From Myxococcota bacterium (GTDB lineage: Bacteria > Myxococcota_C > UBA6777), in assembly GCA_023150835.1 (NCBI GenBank), contig JAKLKB010000227.1, positions 1-5,199 of the forward strand: a stretch of DNA of 5,199 nt, read 5' to 3'. Positions 1 to 5,199 of this stretch are shown here, one piece after another. A program made the translations under genes and the position numbers. Within the stretch, counting starts at the first letter, position 1. Each line of letters opens with the position of its first letter. Under the pieces are notes generated by a model, which was given only the letters and a program-made list of their open reading frames with translations, searched no databases and was not told where the DNA came from.

Positions 1-456
1 TGTTTTGTGGGAAGCGGGGAAAAGATGGAAGGGGTGGGGAACAAAGGAAGCGATTACGTCGGGTGCAAGGGCTGGCGTTTACCGACGGAAGCAGAGTGGG
101 AATACGCTTGTCGTGCGGGTGCGACAACGCCGCGTTATGGAGAGTTAGACGAGATCGCGTGGCATGGGAAGAACAGCGGCAGCACAACGCATGTTGTGGG
201 GCAAAAACAAGCCAATGCGTGGGGGTTGCACGATACGCTAGGGAATGTGTGGGAGTGGTGCTATGACTGGTTTGGTGGTTATTCGGCCCAAGCAGCTACA
301 GACCTTGTTGGAGCAGCTACAGGCGCGAACCGCGTGAGGCGTGGTGGCAGTTGGAACTACAACGCCTACTTCGTGCGGGCGGCGCAGCGCGGCAGCAACA
401 CGCCGACGTACCGCAACAACCTCATCGGTTTCCGTGTCGTCAGGTCGAGCCCCTAG
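1..456 (+). CDS. FGE-sulfatase/C-type-lectin-fold protein, C-terminal part, DGR-type target (5' end outside window)
   Basis: The reading frame is open from the first base, so this is the last 151 residues of a longer protein. Family hallmarks of the formylglycine-generating-enzyme (SUMF1/EgtB/PvdO) fold appear in order: WRLPTEAEWEYACRAGA (about residues 25-41), NAWGLHDTLGNVWEWCYDW (72-90), an RGGSW block (about 114-118) and the terminal GFRVVRSSP (143-151). In this family the fold is used either for enzymes or, in DGR targets, as a C-type-lectin-like scaffold for variable surface residues. Codons 109-142 differ sharply from the second copy at 4139-4240 while the rest is nearly identical, which supports the DGR role. 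The residues unchanged between copies (Arg, Gly-Gly, Trp, Ala, Pro, Gly-Phe-Arg) are the usual scaffold positions. By analogy with the second copy, the missing N-terminus may carry a kinase, but this cannot be seen. Confidence 0.9.
   Translation, partial: CFVGSGEKMEGVGNKGSDYVGCKGWRLPTEAEWEYACRAGATTPRYGELDEIAWHGKNSGSTTHVVGQKQANAWGLHDTLGNVWEWCYDWFGGYSAQAATDLVGAATGANRVRRGGSWNYNAYFVRAAQRGSNTPTYRNNLIGFRVVRSSP
325..426 (+). repeat. DGR variable region, copy 1 (VR1)
   Basis: This 102-bp window aligns without gaps to 4139-4240. It holds 22 substitutions: 14 at codon position 1, 7 at position 2 and 1 at position 3 (the only synonymous one, position 390). Fifteen have A in one of the copies. Third positions are almost fixed as C or G, so variable codons read NNC, as expected when AAC codons of a template are randomised at A. 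The 130 bp before it (195-324) and 86 bp after it (427-512) are identical in the two copies. The template itself is not in the window. Confidence 0.88.
427..456 (+). other. Invariant 3' end of VR1, candidate initiation-of-mutagenic-homology (IMH) segment
   Basis: The 30 bp encoding GFRVVRSSP and the stop are identical in both copies (compare 4241-4270) and abut the last variable base at 424. In known DGRs an IMH at the 3' end of the VR stays unmutated and sets where cDNA priming begins. Position and invariance fit. The exact IMH boundary cannot be set without the TR. Confidence 0.5.
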
Positions 457-466
457 TTGCGGTTTG

Positions 467-488
467 CCGTTTTACCGTTTTACCGTTT
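467..488 (+). repeat. Short tandem repeat CCGTTTTA x2.75 after VR1
   Basis: Two full 8-bp units (467-474, 475-482) and a partial one (483-488) lie 10 bp after the stop codon. The same array is at 4281-4302 behind the second variable region. Confidence 0.7.
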
Positions 489-492
489 GCGG

Positions 493-506
493 CCCGAACA
501 ATCGGG
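493..506 (+). other. Small hairpin/cruciform downstream of VR1
   Basis: CCCGA-ACAA-TCGGG forms a perfect 5-bp stem with a 4-nt loop, 36 bp after the stop codon. It is conserved at 4307-4320. Some DGRs have a hairpin just 3' of the VR that stimulates retrohoming, and this could be its counterpart. It lacks a following T-run, so it is not a typical intrinsic terminator. Confidence 0.4.
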
Positions 507-837
507 GGTGAAAGAGGGTGGTCGCTTCGTGAACGAATGTGTTGTCCGTCGACAGTGCAGTAGTGTACGCAGTATAGAGTGCGGCGGGTTCTGATGGGCG
601 TGGCGCTTCAGGACGCAAGGCAGCGAGCTCCGCCGCGCCGCGTCGTGAAGTGTCGCGCTAGGCTTGCGGAGCGAGGCGCAAGTTCGGGGGGGGGGTTAGG
701 GGCGTCTGTGGCTGGGGTTGGCGATGATGGGAGAAAGCACCGGTGTTCGTGGAGGTTCAAGCGACAGAGGCGTTGTTTTGAAAAGCGACGTTCTTTTCGC
801 CCTCGCGGGGTCAAGGGGCGACAGTCTATGGCGGGGG

Positions 838-857
838 TTTGGGGGCAGGCCCCCAAA
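838..857. other. Palindrome at right border of repeat copy A
   Basis: TTTGGGGG-CAGG-CCCCCAAA is a perfect 8-bp stem with a 4-nt loop. It coincides with the place where similarity to copy B ends; in copy B (4667-4688) the right arm is degraded. No T-run follows on either strand, so a terminator role is doubtful. Confidence 0.6.
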
Positions 858-1009
858 AACAATGGAAGAATCAAGGTGTAGGTTTGCAGAAGAGAAAGGA
901 AAAGGCGGATGAAGGTGAAGGTGTTCAATTGAAGTGATGATGAGGAGACGGGCGGATTTGATAGCAGCGATTTGGAGGCGCTGGGGGAGGAGAAGAGAAG
1001 GGCGAGAGG

Positions 1010-1948
1010 TTATGATGTTTTGTTTGTTGTGGTGGGGTGTTGCTGATGGAGTAGAGAGGCGATTTGTTCGTAAGAAAGGCCAGTCGCTTTGACGATGACA
1101 TCGTGGGGGATGCCTTGGGCGAGCAAGTTTTTTGCGATTTCTCTTCTGCCTTCTTCAAGTCCGATCTCACGACCCTCTTCGATTCCGATCTCGCGACCCT
1201 CTTCGATTCCGATCTCGCGGCCTTTTTTAAGTCCAGATTGTCGAAGTGCTTCTTCACGAGCGTCGTGAAGGTCTTTGAAATCTTGGAGAGTTTCGGGGTC
1301 GAGTTGTTGAAGTTGTTGTGTTTGTGTCATGATGAGAAAGCTCCTATCGAAGTTGTAGAGGAGTGTATGGTAAGGCTCAAGGCGTTGTTGGACAACGTTA
1401 ATCACGGCTTGCTTGCGTTGTCCACCTTTGCCGAGTAGGCAAAAGAGTAGGGTATCCTCGCGAAGTTCGATCTCCGAAGTGTTGACGGCGTAGATGGTTT
1501 CGCGAGGAAGCCCTTGCCATCGACGGATGCCGCTTTCGACGAGTTCGCCTTGTGCGGCGAAGACGGAATCGAGTGCTTTTTGTGGCCAATAGTTGAAGAT
1601 GAGCCAGAGGACACCTTGTGGATAAGGACGACCCTTTTGGTCGTCGTGAGCGCGTTGAAGGGCAAGACGGAGTTTGGAGAGGTTGGCTTCGAGGCGCTTT
1701 TCGGGGACAGAGCCGCTAAAGGCTTCGACAAGACAGCGAGCATCACCCGTCAAACGGGTGAGCAAGCCAGCACCAAGAAAGTTCGGGGGGAGAGGTTTGT
1801 CGGGGATTAAGAGAACATCAGCGCGGAAGGTATCGGGTAAGAGGTCAGTTCCGACTTCAACGTAGGTGGTATCGCCAAACAAGCCAGCAATGAGGAATTT
1901 GCTGAGGCGATCTTCAAACTGCGAGAGGGTCTTTTTTTGATGGTTCAT
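1010..1948 (-). CDS. Rpn-like (PD-(D/E)XK nuclease/transposase family) protein with charged tandem-repeat tail
   Basis: This is a 312-residue protein starting MNHQKKTLSQFEDRL. The start was chosen because upstream in-frame codons run into the MITE at 2035-2148 and read unlike protein; the ribosome binding site is weak. The N-terminal half (about 27-120) contains TTYVEVGTDLLPDTFRADVLL and ARCLVEAFSGS, compatible with a degenerate PD-(D/E)XK core (candidate acidic residues D44 and E75). The catalytic Lys is not obvious. Residues 243-266 are three copies of GREIGIEE, followed by AKNLLAQGIPHDVIVKATGLSYEQIASL (272-299), a helical tail common in Rpn/PDDEXK-family transposase proteins. Members of that family promote RecA-independent recombination or are simply mobile. 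This gene is convergent with the upstream FGE gene and divergent from the kinase. Activity is uncertain. Confidence 0.75.
   Translation of the reverse strand: MNHQKKTLSQFEDRLSKFLIAGLFGDTTYVEVGTDLLPDTFRADVLLIPDKPLPPNFLGAGLLTRLTGDARCLVEAFSGSVPEKRLEANLSKLRLALQRAHDDQKGRPYPQGVLWLIFNYWPQKALDSVFAAQGELVESGIRRWQGLPRETIYAVNTSEIELREDTLLFCLLGKGGQRKQAVINVVQQRLEPYHTLLYNFDRSFLIMTQTQQLQQLDPETLQDFKDLHDAREEALRQSGLKKGREIGIEEGREIGIEEGREIGLEEGRREIAKNLLAQGIPHDVIVKATGLSYEQIASLLHQQHPTTTNKTS
1161..1222 (-). repeat. 24-bp tandem repeat inside the Rpn-like gene
   Basis: Two full 24-bp units (1161-1184, 1185-1208) differ at one base, and a 14-bp partial unit (1209-1222) follows. They encode the GREIGIEE repeats. The unit length is a multiple of three, so copy-number change would keep the frame and only lengthen or shorten the charged helical linker. 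Confidence 0.85.
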
Positions 1949-2034
1949 CTTCAACCTAGGGGTGGTGGAGTGCAGGGTGGTCGGTTGCAAGGGGGATTTG
2001 TGAAGAGTAAAAGAAAGTGCGAGCGAAAACAAGA

Positions 2035-2148
2035 TAGGAGTGACGCAGTTGGGGATGATCTGTCGTAAAATCGCCTTGTTGTAGGGGCGTATGGCATACG
2101 CCCTCGACCAAACAATGGGCTTCTTCGCATCCAACTGCGTAACTCCTA
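2035..2148. mobile_element. MITE-like element, 114 bp, with 18-bp TIRs and 6-bp target duplication
   Basis: The left end TAGGAGTGACGCAGTTGG (2035-2052) and the reverse complement of the right end, TAGGAGTTACGCAGTTGG (2131-2148), differ at one base. Each end is directly flanked by ACAAGA (2029-2034 and 2149-2154), a likely target-site duplication. The interior carries a palindrome at 2085-2103 and no gene. The element sits 86 bp upstream of the Rpn-like start and supplies the spurious 5' extension of that frame. The mobilising transposase is not in the window. Confidence 0.82.
2082..2103 (+). repeat. TAGGGGC palindromic unit inside the MITE
   Basis: TAGGGGC leads into GGGCGTAT-GGC-ATACGCCC (2085-2103), a perfect 8-bp stem. 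Two more palindromes fronted by TAGGGGC lie at 4848-4871 and 4898-4922, suggesting a dispersed REP-like family. Confidence 0.55.
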
Positions 2149-2154
2149 ACAAGA

Positions 2155-2373
2155 AAAGAGGGGGGTCAGATTGTTTTTCCAGAGGTTGGCGAGTCGGGCG
2201 AGAGCATCGGCGGCGTCTTGCCTTTGCGATATTCGTTGGTGAATGATGTGGGGAAAGGATGATATCGAGGAGGGCGGAGGGCTGCTAAACAATAAGGCGG
2301 AGCAGTCAAGGGTTCTCGGCTTTGGGCATCGCTGTTTTTGATGACACGCACAAACGCACCCGAAGAAACGGAC
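2155..2373. other. Intergenic leader upstream of the kinase gene
   Basis: No complete gene or convincing promoter is seen. On the minus strand, a short in-frame stretch ending QRQDAADALARLANLWKN (about 2167-2220) reads like the tail of a helical protein and ends at a stop within the MITE inverted repeat. It may be a gene remnant. Evidence is weak. Confidence 0.35.
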
Positions 2374-2379
2374 AGGAGG
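2374..2379 (+). promoter_or_regulatory. Ribosome binding site of the kinase gene
   Basis: AGGAGG lies 5 nt before the ATG at 2385. It decides the start against an in-frame TTG at 2322, whose 21 extra residues are not protein-like. Confidence 0.85.
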
Positions 2380-2384
2380 AAGCG

Positions 2385-4055
2385 ATGGACAAGAAAGCGT
2401 TGATGGAAGAGTTGGAGCAGTTGGGGAAGTTGTACCAAGCGGGGGTGTTTTCACAGGCGGAGTTTGAAGCGCAACGAGCGGAGTTGTTGGAGCAGTTACG
2501 GTTGTTACGCAGTGGGCAGACGCCGATGCCGTCCAAAGGTGGTGGAAGTGGACTCAGCCAAGTACACGGTGCGGATGTGCTGGCAACGGGATTTGTGGGA
2601 GGGCAAGGGCAGACGGGGCTGGGTGTGGGTCGGGTGGTGGGGGAGCGTTATCGGTTGGTGCGGAGGTTGGGGCAAGGTGGGATGGGCGAAGTGTGGTTGG
2701 CCGAAGATATCCGCTTGGGTCGGGCGTTTGCGCTGAAGTTTTTGGCCGATGCGTTGGTGGGTTCAGCAGAAGCGTTGGGGCGGATGCACCGAGAATATGA
2801 AGTGCTCGAAAAACTGTCGCATCCGCATATTGTGCGCGTCTTCGATCTGGATCAGGACAAAGACAGCGGGCGCTGGTTTCTGCGAATGGAGTATGTGGAA
2901 GGCGGAGACTTGGGGAAAAAGATCGCGGTGGTGGCGCAACAAGCCCACCGACCGCTGTTTGGGATGGAGGTGATGGTAGGTTGGTTGGGGCAGCTAGTGG
3001 AGGCGTTGGATTATGCCCATCAACAGGGGATCTTGCACCGCGACATCAAGCCCGCAAATCTAATGCTGACGAGCGATCTGCAGCGATTGAAAGTGATGGA
3101 CTTTGGGATAGCGCGTGTGGTGAGCGGAACACATACGACTCAACACACGGCGATGATGGGATCGATGTACTATGCCGCACCTGAGCTTTTGCGTGGTCAA
3201 GTAGCCACTCCCTCAGCGGATATCTATTCGTTTGGTGTGTTGGTGTACGAGATGTTGACGGGGGAACCGCCGATGGGACATTTCGAGAAACCGTCTTTGG
3301 TGGTGGATGGGCTTTCGGTAGAGGTGGATCGACCGCTGCTGGGGATGTTATCGCCAAACCCGACAAAACGGGGAGAATCGTTGCGCGAGGCGTGGTCGCC
3401 GTTGCGGGATGCGCTGCTTGGAAAAGCGACGACAGTGGTTGTGCCACCCCAGCCCGCGCCAGCATCGCCAAAGATCGAGGTGATCGCACCGCCACCGCCA
3501 CCGAAGATCGCGGAACCATCGGCAGGAGAGCGGCGGGTGTTTCGCGTGGGTGGGGCGGAGTTTGCGATGCGCTGGATCCCTGCGGGGCGTTTCCTCATGG
3601 GCGCAGGAGCCGATGACAAACAGGCCGATGGCGACGAAAAACCGCAACACGATGTGACAATCACGCGGGGGTTTTGGATGGGGGAGGTGCCCGTCACACA
3701 GAGCCAATACCAAACGATCATGGGCCAAAATCCATCGCATTTCAAAAAGGCTGGATCGGATGCACCTGTGGAGCGGGTGAGTTGGTACGATGCTGCGGTG
3801 TTTGCAAACGAACTGTCAGCGTTGGAGGGGCTATCGGCTTGTTTTGTGGGAAGCGGGGAAAAGATGGAAGGGGTGGGGAACAAAGGAAGCGATTACGTCG
3901 GGTGCAAGGGCTGGCGTTTACCGACGGAAGCAGAGTGGGAATACGCTTGTCGTGCGGGTGCGACAACGCCGCGTTATGGAGTGGAAACAGCGGCAAGACA
4001 ACGCATGCTGTGGGGCAAAAACAAGCCAATGCGTGGGGGTTGCACGATACGCTAG
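2385..4055 (+). CDS. Serine/threonine kinase-FGE fusion, truncated by frameshift
   Basis: The frame encodes 556 residues. Residues 1-42 (MDKKALMEELEQLGKLYQAGVFSQAEFEAQ...) form a short helical SHOCT-like domain. The Hanks-type kinase domain spans about 87-346: glycine loop GQGGMGEV (96-103), Lys118, HRDIKPAN with Asp220 and Asn225, DFG at 239-241, APE at 265-267 and ADIYSFG around 278-284. All catalytic residues are present. A Pro-rich linker (354-378) leads to an FGE domain from about 384 (FAMRWIPAGRFLMGA, GEVPVTQSQY, PVERVSWYDAAVFANEL, WRLPTEAEWEY). No membrane segment is seen, so it should be cytoplasmic. After RYG (residue 532) a deletion shifts the frame and adds 24 unrelated residues before the stop. 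The product would keep an active-looking kinase but lose the variable end. The intact form probably coupled variable ligand binding to phosphorylation; this is inferred. Confidence 0.93.
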   Translation: MDKKALMEELEQLGKLYQAGVFSQAEFEAQRAELLEQLRLLRSGQTPMPSKGGGSGLSQVHGADVLATGFVGGQGQTGLGVGRVVGERYRLVRRLGQGGMGEVWLAEDIRLGRAFALKFLADALVGSAEALGRMHREYEVLEKLSHPHIVRVFDLDQDKDSGRWFLRMEYVEGGDLGKKIAVVAQQAHRPLFGMEVMVGWLGQLVEALDYAHQQGILHRDIKPANLMLTSDLQRLKVMDFGIARVVSGTHTTQHTAMMGSMYYAAPELLRGQVATPSADIYSFGVLVYEMLTGEPPMGHFEKPSLVVDGLSVEVDRPLLGMLSPNPTKRGESLREAWSPLRDALLGKATTVVVPPQPAPASPKIEVIAPPPPPKIAEPSAGERRVFRVGGAEFAMRWIPAGRFLMGAGADDKQADGDEKPQHDVTITRGFWMGEVPVTQSQYQTIMGQNPSHFKKAGSDAPVERVSWYDAAVFANELSALEGLSACFVGSGEKMEGVGNKGSDYVGCKGWRLPTEAEWEYACRAGATTPRYGVETAARQRMLWGKNKPMRGGCTIR

Positions 4056-4138
4056 GGAATGTGTGGGAGTGGTGCTATGACTGGTTTGGTGGTTATTCGG
4101 CCCAAGCAGCTACAGACCTTGTTGGAGCAGCTACAGGC

Positions 4139-4240
4139 ACGAGCCGCGTGTTGCGTGGTGGCGGTTGGAACGACAACGCCTACAGCGTGCGGGCGGCGCA
4201 GCGTTTCGACTACGCGCCGTCGTCCCGCTACTACTACTTC
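4139..4240 (+). repeat. DGR variable region, copy 2 (VR2)
   Basis: This is the gap-free counterpart of 325-426. Examples of changed codons, VR1 to VR2: Arg to Leu (4151), Tyr to Asp (4172), Phe to Ser (4184), Gly to Phe (4205), Ser to Asp (4208) and Leu to Tyr (4235). Residues shared with VR1 include RGG, W, AY, VRAAQR, P and GFR. Aromatic and small polar residues at NNC codons are typical of AAC-derived DGR positions. Confidence 0.88.
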
Positions 4241-4270
4241 GGTTTCCGTGTCGTCAGGTCGAGCCCCTAG
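4241..4270 (+). other. Invariant 3' end of VR2, candidate IMH
   Basis: These 30 bp are identical to 427-456 and lie directly after the last variable codon, so the same IMH argument applies. The identity continues well past the stop codon. Confidence 0.5.
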
Positions 4271-4280
4271 TTGCGGTTTG

Positions 4281-4302
4281 CCGTTTTACCGTTTTACCGT
4301 TT
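4281..4302 (+). repeat. Short tandem repeat CCGTTTTA x2.75 after VR2
   Basis: This array is identical to 467-488: two complete 8-bp units and a partial third, 10 bp after the stop. Confidence 0.7.
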
Positions 4303-4306
4303 GCGG

Positions 4307-4320
4307 CCCGAACAATCGGG
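4307..4320 (+). other. Small hairpin/cruciform downstream of VR2
   Basis: CCCGA-ACAA-TCGGG is conserved with 493-506, 36 bp after the FGE stop. It may be the retrohoming-type hairpin of a DGR target or just part of the conserved 3' block. Confidence 0.4.
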
Positions 4321-4498
4321 GGTGAAGAGGAGGGCGGCTTCGTGAACGAATGTGTTGTCCCTGGACAGTGCAGTAGTGTATGCAGTATAGAGTGCGGTGG
4401 GTTCTGATGGGCGTGGCGCTTCAGGACGCAAGGCAGCGAGCTCCGCCGCGCCGCGTCGTGAAGTGTCACGCTAGGCTTGAGGAGCGAGGCGCAAGTTC

Positions 4499-4533
4499 GG
4501 GGGGGGTTAGGCTGGGAGGGTTAGGGTGGGGGG
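4499..4533 (+). other. G-quadruplex-forming tract
   Basis: G-runs of 8, 3, 3, 3 and 6 are separated by loops of 7, 1, 3 and 1 nt. Copy A has only G10, TTA and G4 at the same place (686-702). The 18-bp length difference looks like slippage expansion. Confidence 0.6.
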
Positions 4534-4847
4534 CGTCTGTGGCTGAAGTTGGCGATGATGGGAGAAAACATCGGTGTTCGTGGAGGTTCAAGCGACAGAG
4601 GCGTTGTTTTGAAAAGCGATGTTCTTTTCGCCCTCGCGGGGTCAAGGGGCGACAGTCTATGGCGGGGGTTTGGGGGCAGGCCCCACAGAAAGAGGCTGCA
4701 AAAAGGCAACGCCCCACTTATTCACATTTGGCTCATGTTGTGTTTTGAGGTCTTCTAAGGTACCTCATGAGCGACGTTTTTGATCGAGTGGGTCCGTTCA
4801 AACCAACGCCATGAGAGAGGTATCAAGAGGCAACACTTCTCAGCGAA

Positions 4848-4922
4848 GGCAACCACACATGGTTGCCCCTACGTGTTGGAAATCACACGGTGTTTTATAG
4901 GGGCAGACAGGTGTGCCTGCCC
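4848..4922. repeat. Head-to-head pair of palindromic REP-like units
   Basis: The first unit, GGCAACCA-CACA-TGGTTGCC (4848-4867), has a perfect 8-bp stem. The second (4901-4922, GGGCAGACA/TGCCTGCCC) has a 9-bp stem with one mismatch. TAGGGGC motifs face each other (4865-4871 on the minus strand, 4898-4904 on the plus strand). The pair lies just past the 3' end of the gene at 4948-5199 and might end its transcript, but T-runs are lacking. Confidence 0.65.
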
Positions 4923-4947
4923 GATCTCTGTTGCGTCGGTGACCTCT

Positions 4948-5199
4948 TCATCGCTGTCTGTTTTGAACGAACCCCCGCAAGGGGAGGAGGTATCTTTGGG
5001 TCGCGGCTTGACGAGGGTAGGCGAGATCGAGGTGGGAGGCTTGGACTTGGAGGACGCCGAGGATGTCGTGCCACTGCCGTTCAGAGACACCACCACCCAT
5101 TTGGAACCAACGGAGCTTGTGCAGGATGGTATCTTCGGGACTTGCGAGGTAGAGGGCGGTGGAGGTGGTTTCATCGAGGGGGACACGCTGACGGCGTTT
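4948..5199 (-). CDS. Probable nucleotidyltransferase-like (AbiEii-type) hypothetical protein, C-terminal part
   Basis: On the minus strand the frame is open from the right edge to a TGA at 4948-4950, giving 83 residues with no start in the window. The segment LYLASPEDTILHKLRWFQMG, then GGVSERQWHDILGVLQVQ and LDLAY (residues 16-61) matches a motif I know from small bacterial hypothetical proteins usually grouped with AbiEii-like nucleotidyltransferases. In those relatives a helical segment resembling LRRWAAELGVTDLLERAL follows LDLAY. Here the tail instead reads PRQAATQRYLLPLRGFVQNRQR and stops, so the C-terminus may be truncated or replaced near the palindromic repeats. It points toward the kinase gene (convergent). 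The family name rests on memory of the motif; catalytic residues would lie outside the window. Confidence 0.65.
   Translation of the reverse strand, partial: KRRQRVPLDETTSTALYLASPEDTILHKLRWFQMGGGVSERQWHDILGVLQVQASHLDLAYPRQAATQRYLLPLRGFVQNRQR

Follow-up and report, generated by a model that had tools for sequence, protein, structure and literature searches.

In nearly all known diversity-generating retroelements (DGRs), 75% or more of the mismatches face adenine (PMC8144416). Among the closest described systems, the Treponema denticola DGR has HRDC accessory genes adjoining its reverse transcriptase (RT) (PMC4891356), and cyanobacterial DGRs have kinase-CLec targets with many remote variable regions (VRs) (PMC7517822). 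Thiohalocapsa PB-PSB1 combines several DGR classes, degenerate loci and diversification in trans, and some of its loci with broken parts had intact variants in other cells (PMC10907252). Here we examine a 5,199-nucleotide stretch of DNA (the window), which is the whole of one contig (C221; JAKLKB010000227.1, positions 1 to 5,199) of a Myxococcota assembly (GCA_023150835.1; GTDB Myxococcota_C, UBA6777). Based on sequence comparison, the two variable regions that it contains, VR1 and VR2, are very probably target regions of an adenine-specific DGR, a reading to which we assign a probability of roughly 95%.

Target genes and variable regions

VR1 (325-426, + strand) lies in the C-terminal part of a first target gene (1-456, +; FGE-sulfatase / C-type lectin, PF03781, E 2.5e-31), which is cut by the contig start, and ends 30 bases before the last base of that gene. 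VR2 (4139-4240, +) belongs to a second target gene (2385-4270, +), in which a Ser/Thr kinase domain (PF00069, E 1.5e-48) is combined with an FGE domain (PF03781). The best PDB match of the VR-bearing domain is 2y3c, the T. denticola DGR variable protein 1 (E 4e-25). The second gene is frameshifted before its VR, with the open frame from 2385 stopping at 4055 and VR2 lying in a different frame that ends at 4270. Relative to both the first copy and a paralogue on contig C118, this copy has a 25-bp deletion at about 3982 (3979-3990), as a result of which its kinase and VR2 no longer share a reading frame. The paralogue itself is intact and encodes 645 aa comprising kinase, FGE domain and VR. Outside the VR, comparison of the second target gene with this paralogue gives a dN of 0.042 and a dS of 0.247, and this part of the gene is under purifying selection.

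A base-by-base comparison of VR1 and VR2 found 22 of the 102 positions to be unlike, between flanks that are identical for exactly 130 bases on the 5' side and 86 bases on the 3' side. All but one of the differences (21/22) fall at codon positions 1 or 2, an A is present in one copy at 15 of the sites, and 16 of the 34 residues are altered. These counts reproduce those of a first-pass annotation of the window, which had also described the third positions as staying C or G; the description holds everywhere except at position 390 (4204 in the second copy), the site of the sole third-position change (C/T). In the rest of the duplicate, comprising gene and spacer, substitutions number 4 in 296 sites before the VR (leaving aside the 25-bp deletion of the second copy) and 15 in 410 after it, versus 22 in 102 inside, and the divergence between VR1 and VR2 is therefore not due to chance. 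The NG86 dN/dS is 0.276/0.035 between VR1 and VR2, compared with 0.026/0.285 between the same gene just before the VR and the C118 paralogue.

Template repeat and proposed mechanism

The same genome carries, on the separate contig C185, a 121-bp template repeat (TR1; C185:9754-9874, minus strand). When the genome was searched with VR1 plus flank, many paralogues came up, and with them a 120-bp stretch (C185:9754-9873) whose similarity is confined to the VR. A hypothetical template, written in AAC-type codons with each variable site set to A, had this repeat as its best match in the genome (97% identical), and across the 7.56 Mb searched the A-substituted sequence matched TR1 better than the VRs themselves. 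Read in the VR frame, 13 of the 40 codons of TR1 are AAC, and adenines make up 37 of its 121 sites (31%). The homology with TR1 extends over 322-442 for VR1, where 14 of the 15 mismatches are at template adenines (hypergeometric p 1e-7), and over 4136-4256 for VR2, where this applies to all 21 (p 8e-14). At the non-adenine sites of the template, 167 of 168 bases are retained in the two VRs taken together. The first-pass annotation had read the VR pair as targets of a DGR with an adenine-rich template elsewhere in the genome beside an RT, and this was borne out by the repeat on C185, which has an RT fragment directly upstream and whose adenines account for 21 of the 22 differences between VR1 and VR2, the exception being position 390. 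The template stretch that it had deduced for 388-405, CGCAACAACAACACGCCG, agrees with the actual CGTAACAACAACACGCCG in all but one base, at the non-adenine site 390. Two paralogous VRs in one short window were thus sufficient to predict a DGR template that was then found, near letter-perfect, on a separate contig.

In the proposed mechanism, reverse transcription of TR1 RNA would insert random bases wherever the template has an adenine, and the resulting cDNA, itself a presumed intermediate, would take the place of the 3' end in genes for Ser/Thr kinase-FGE sensors. About 13 AAC codons would be randomised in this way in the C-type-lectin ligand-binding end, the remaining bases staying fixed, in proteins that presumably sense ligands and signal through their kinase. 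A single TR would serve a family of dispersed kinase-FGE genes, and the VRs would consequently be diversified at least partly in trans. Action in trans, as the first-pass annotation had claimed, is favoured by the location of TR and VRs on different contigs together with their near-complete identity at non-adenine sites.

Template classes and sister species

The genome contains a second DGR (C63:17531-18974) with an Avd gene, an RT, its own TR and its own targets. The Avd (NF033474, E 1e-24, above its cut-off) lies beside the template, TR2 (C63:17531-17670), and the RT carries an LPIGNLTSQ motif but is frameshifted, several codons having been lost just before MDD. TR2 was rejected as the template of VR1 and VR2, each of which matches it at only 62 of 78 non-adenine sites and thus has 16 non-A mismatches, whereas the corresponding values for TR1 are 76/77 (VR1) and 77/77 (VR2). 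VRs fitting TR2 were found on C182 and C204, and on contig C12 of a sister species (G001, also a Myxococcota MAG). By sequence fit, there are two classes of template, each with targets of its own.

A TR of the same kind also occurs in the sister species, together with more VRs, in which 20/20 and 26/28 mismatches are at A. On its contig C506 (about 430-546) the first part of the HRDC ORF runs straight into the TR and the whole HRDC-RT is gone, leaving an orphan TR. Among five genomes of the family, the TR/VR system is present in only two, those of the genus.

Reverse transcriptase and cassette decay

Directly 5' of TR1, on the same strand and ending a few bases before it, is the C-terminal half of an RT with a YMDD motif, RYLRYMDDMLLFG, preceded in another frame by an HRDC-domain ORF (PF00570, E 4e-18). 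The 3' half of the RT gene thus adjoins the template and its 5' part is missing, alignment with intact relatives indicating that everything before the YMDD region is gone. An intact cognate RT was not found elsewhere in the assembly with either RT half as the query at E values up to 10, and searches of the assembly with both halves returned no DGR-like RT beyond this fragment and the frameshifted gene on C63. In four relatives from the family, no intact RT of this DGR close to the query was found. Two other candidates, an RT inside a 904-aa ORF on C183 and a 721-aa ORF with two RT domains on C85, were rejected as DGR RTs because neither is adjoined by a TR match. At the C183 locus (39347-42964), the 904-aa ORF has an RVT_1 domain and lies next to what is by eye an apparent Cas6-type CRISPR-associated gene, and is possibly a CRISPR-linked RT.

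Part of a similar cassette persists in the window. Downstream of VR1, positions 807-998 can be aligned with the beginning of the cassette on C185, with 13 substitutions over 189 sites, plus indels, and include a decayed 5' end of the DGR accessory HRDC ORF (910-998, +). The first-pass annotation had found only the two VRs in the window; the template and RT are indeed elsewhere, but this HRDC start must be added. The spacer separating the target gene from the accessory gene (443-909, +) recurs at 4257-4684 and also upstream of the TR in the sister species. Pieced together from C221, C185 and C506 of the sister genome, the cassette order is VR gene, spacer, HRDC, RT and TR, and given this order and the match of 807-998 to the C185 cassette start, VR1 once had a local cassette of its own. 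A small hairpin 3' of VR1 (CCCGA-ACAA-TCGGG, 493-506, +), present again at 4307-4320, is a candidate target-recognition element. In a check for IMH/cruciform elements, such a 5-bp hairpin about 50 bp downstream of the VR was found at several targets, with a varying loop; it is absent from some, and a universal 3' hairpin was rejected.

Further repeats were observed around the targets. Short TTTTACCG repeats at 460-490, just 3' of the target genes, are common to many paralogues, and 4977-5199, a further dispersed repeat, has a counterpart of 97% identity on C99, downstream of the VR gene there. An ORF of up to 380 aa on the minus strand (1010-2152), lying after the HRDC remnant and before the second target gene, contains GREIGIEEGREIG repeats and had no Pfam hit; we take it to resemble Rpn-type putative transposase/nuclease proteins.

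The condition of these cassettes bears on when diversification took place. It is possible, though not the course that we favour, that a complete VR-HRDC-RT-TR cassette was once active and that its RT has since been lost and homing has ended, which is a question of timing within the DGR reading and does not exclude it. The two DGR RTs of the assembly are each broken close to their catalytic motif, the sister species has no RT, and the cassette of the window itself has shrunk to an HRDC stub, all of which agree with such an end. Against this, the local cassette remnant has drifted by about 7% (13/189), whereas VR1 and VR2 differ from TR1 at only 1 of 168 non-adenine sites, and from this difference it follows that copying from the template would have continued in trans after the local cassette decayed. 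Trans copying thus seems to have outlasted the local cassette, in a comparison that involves few sites and sets coding against non-coding DNA. The MAG moreover has a completeness of 93% and this repeat interrupts its contigs, and an intact RT may therefore be absent from the assembly only. We infer that, broken as the assembled RT copies are, an active enzyme was at work until recently; it either escaped assembly, is carried by other cells or has lately been lost. A bolder proposal, which we consider unlikely, is that the kinase-sensor family is still being diversified in trans from orphan templates despite the destruction of every local DGR RT, with activity borrowed from another RT or from a few cells with an intact one, amounting to a division of labour within the population.

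Paralogous variable regions

About ten TR1-like VRs are present in the genome, two on C221 and others on C118, C211, C9, C120, C58, C13, C99 and C39. The mismatches of the other seven ungapped VRs are likewise enriched at TR adenines (p 6e-4 to 2e-9). Younger targets have almost purely adenine changes, while the older ones on C13, C120 and C58 have many non-A changes too, a pattern consistent with inactive targets. A 25-base perfect match on C88 was set aside as a stray copy of the gene 3' end lacking a VR, and most hits of the FGE query in genome and viral sequences were ordinary FGE-domain proteins at 42-55% identity.

With so many paralogues, and with a contig that begins inside the repeat, gene conversion, or a misassembly in which reads of numerous FGE paralogues within a metagenome bin were mixed, might be suspected of producing the VR pattern. 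We regard this as very improbable, as mixing of paralogues would import the 2 to 14 non-adenine differences that each of these VRs carries, and there is just one in VR1 and none in VR2; misassembly could, on the other hand, have disrupted the RT genes and shifted the frame before VR2. A scenario without a retroelement, in which the duplicated sensor genes simply drifted or underwent ordinary positive selection, would fit the high dN/dS inside the VR but has a negligible chance of being correct and is refuted by the TR comparison, since 35 of the 36 pooled VR-TR mismatches fall at the 31% of sites that are A in a non-coding copy on another contig.

Comparison with known systems

Taken together, the locus appears to be a genuine multi-target, partly degenerate DGR that fits the described systems cited here, its unusual feature being the lack of any intact DGR RT in the assembly. 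This pairing of broken RTs with VRs that look fresh raises the questions of how DGR cassettes decay and whether their targets survive on trans activity. Bordetella phage BPP-1 (PMC3240598) shares with the present system adenine mutagenesis, a VR at the gene 3' end, Avd (on C63 only) and, for several targets, a hairpin 3' of the VR; its target, however, is a phage receptor-binding protein diversified in cis and its 8-bp hairpin directly follows the VR, whereas the hairpin here is 5 bp, about 50 bp away and not universal. The T. denticola DGR (TvpA; PMC4891356) is similar in its adenine-specific TR-VR pair, its FGE-type C-type-lectin target and the HRDC gene beside its RT, and differs from the present system, in which the target domain is fused to a Ser/Thr kinase, one TR is shared by many scattered genes and the assembled RT is truncated. 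Thiohalocapsa PB-PSB1 (PMC10907252) also has a genome of about 8 Mb, in which DGRs of several classes occur alongside degenerate loci and sensor genes are diversified in trans. It retains one intact locus per class, unlike the genome examined here, for which assembly sequence alone was used, and by analogy intact RT variants may be present in other cells here as well. Cyanobacterial DGRs (PMC7517822) resemble ours in having an N-terminal kinase, a C-terminal CLec domain with the VR and many remote targets, while the system described here belongs to another phylum and has an HRDC-type cassette, two TR classes with separate targets and degenerate cassettes. A little-sampled lineage with large genomes would thus join the cyanobacteria and Thiohalocapsa as hypermutators of Ser/Thr-kinase sensors, and would do so with two template classes.
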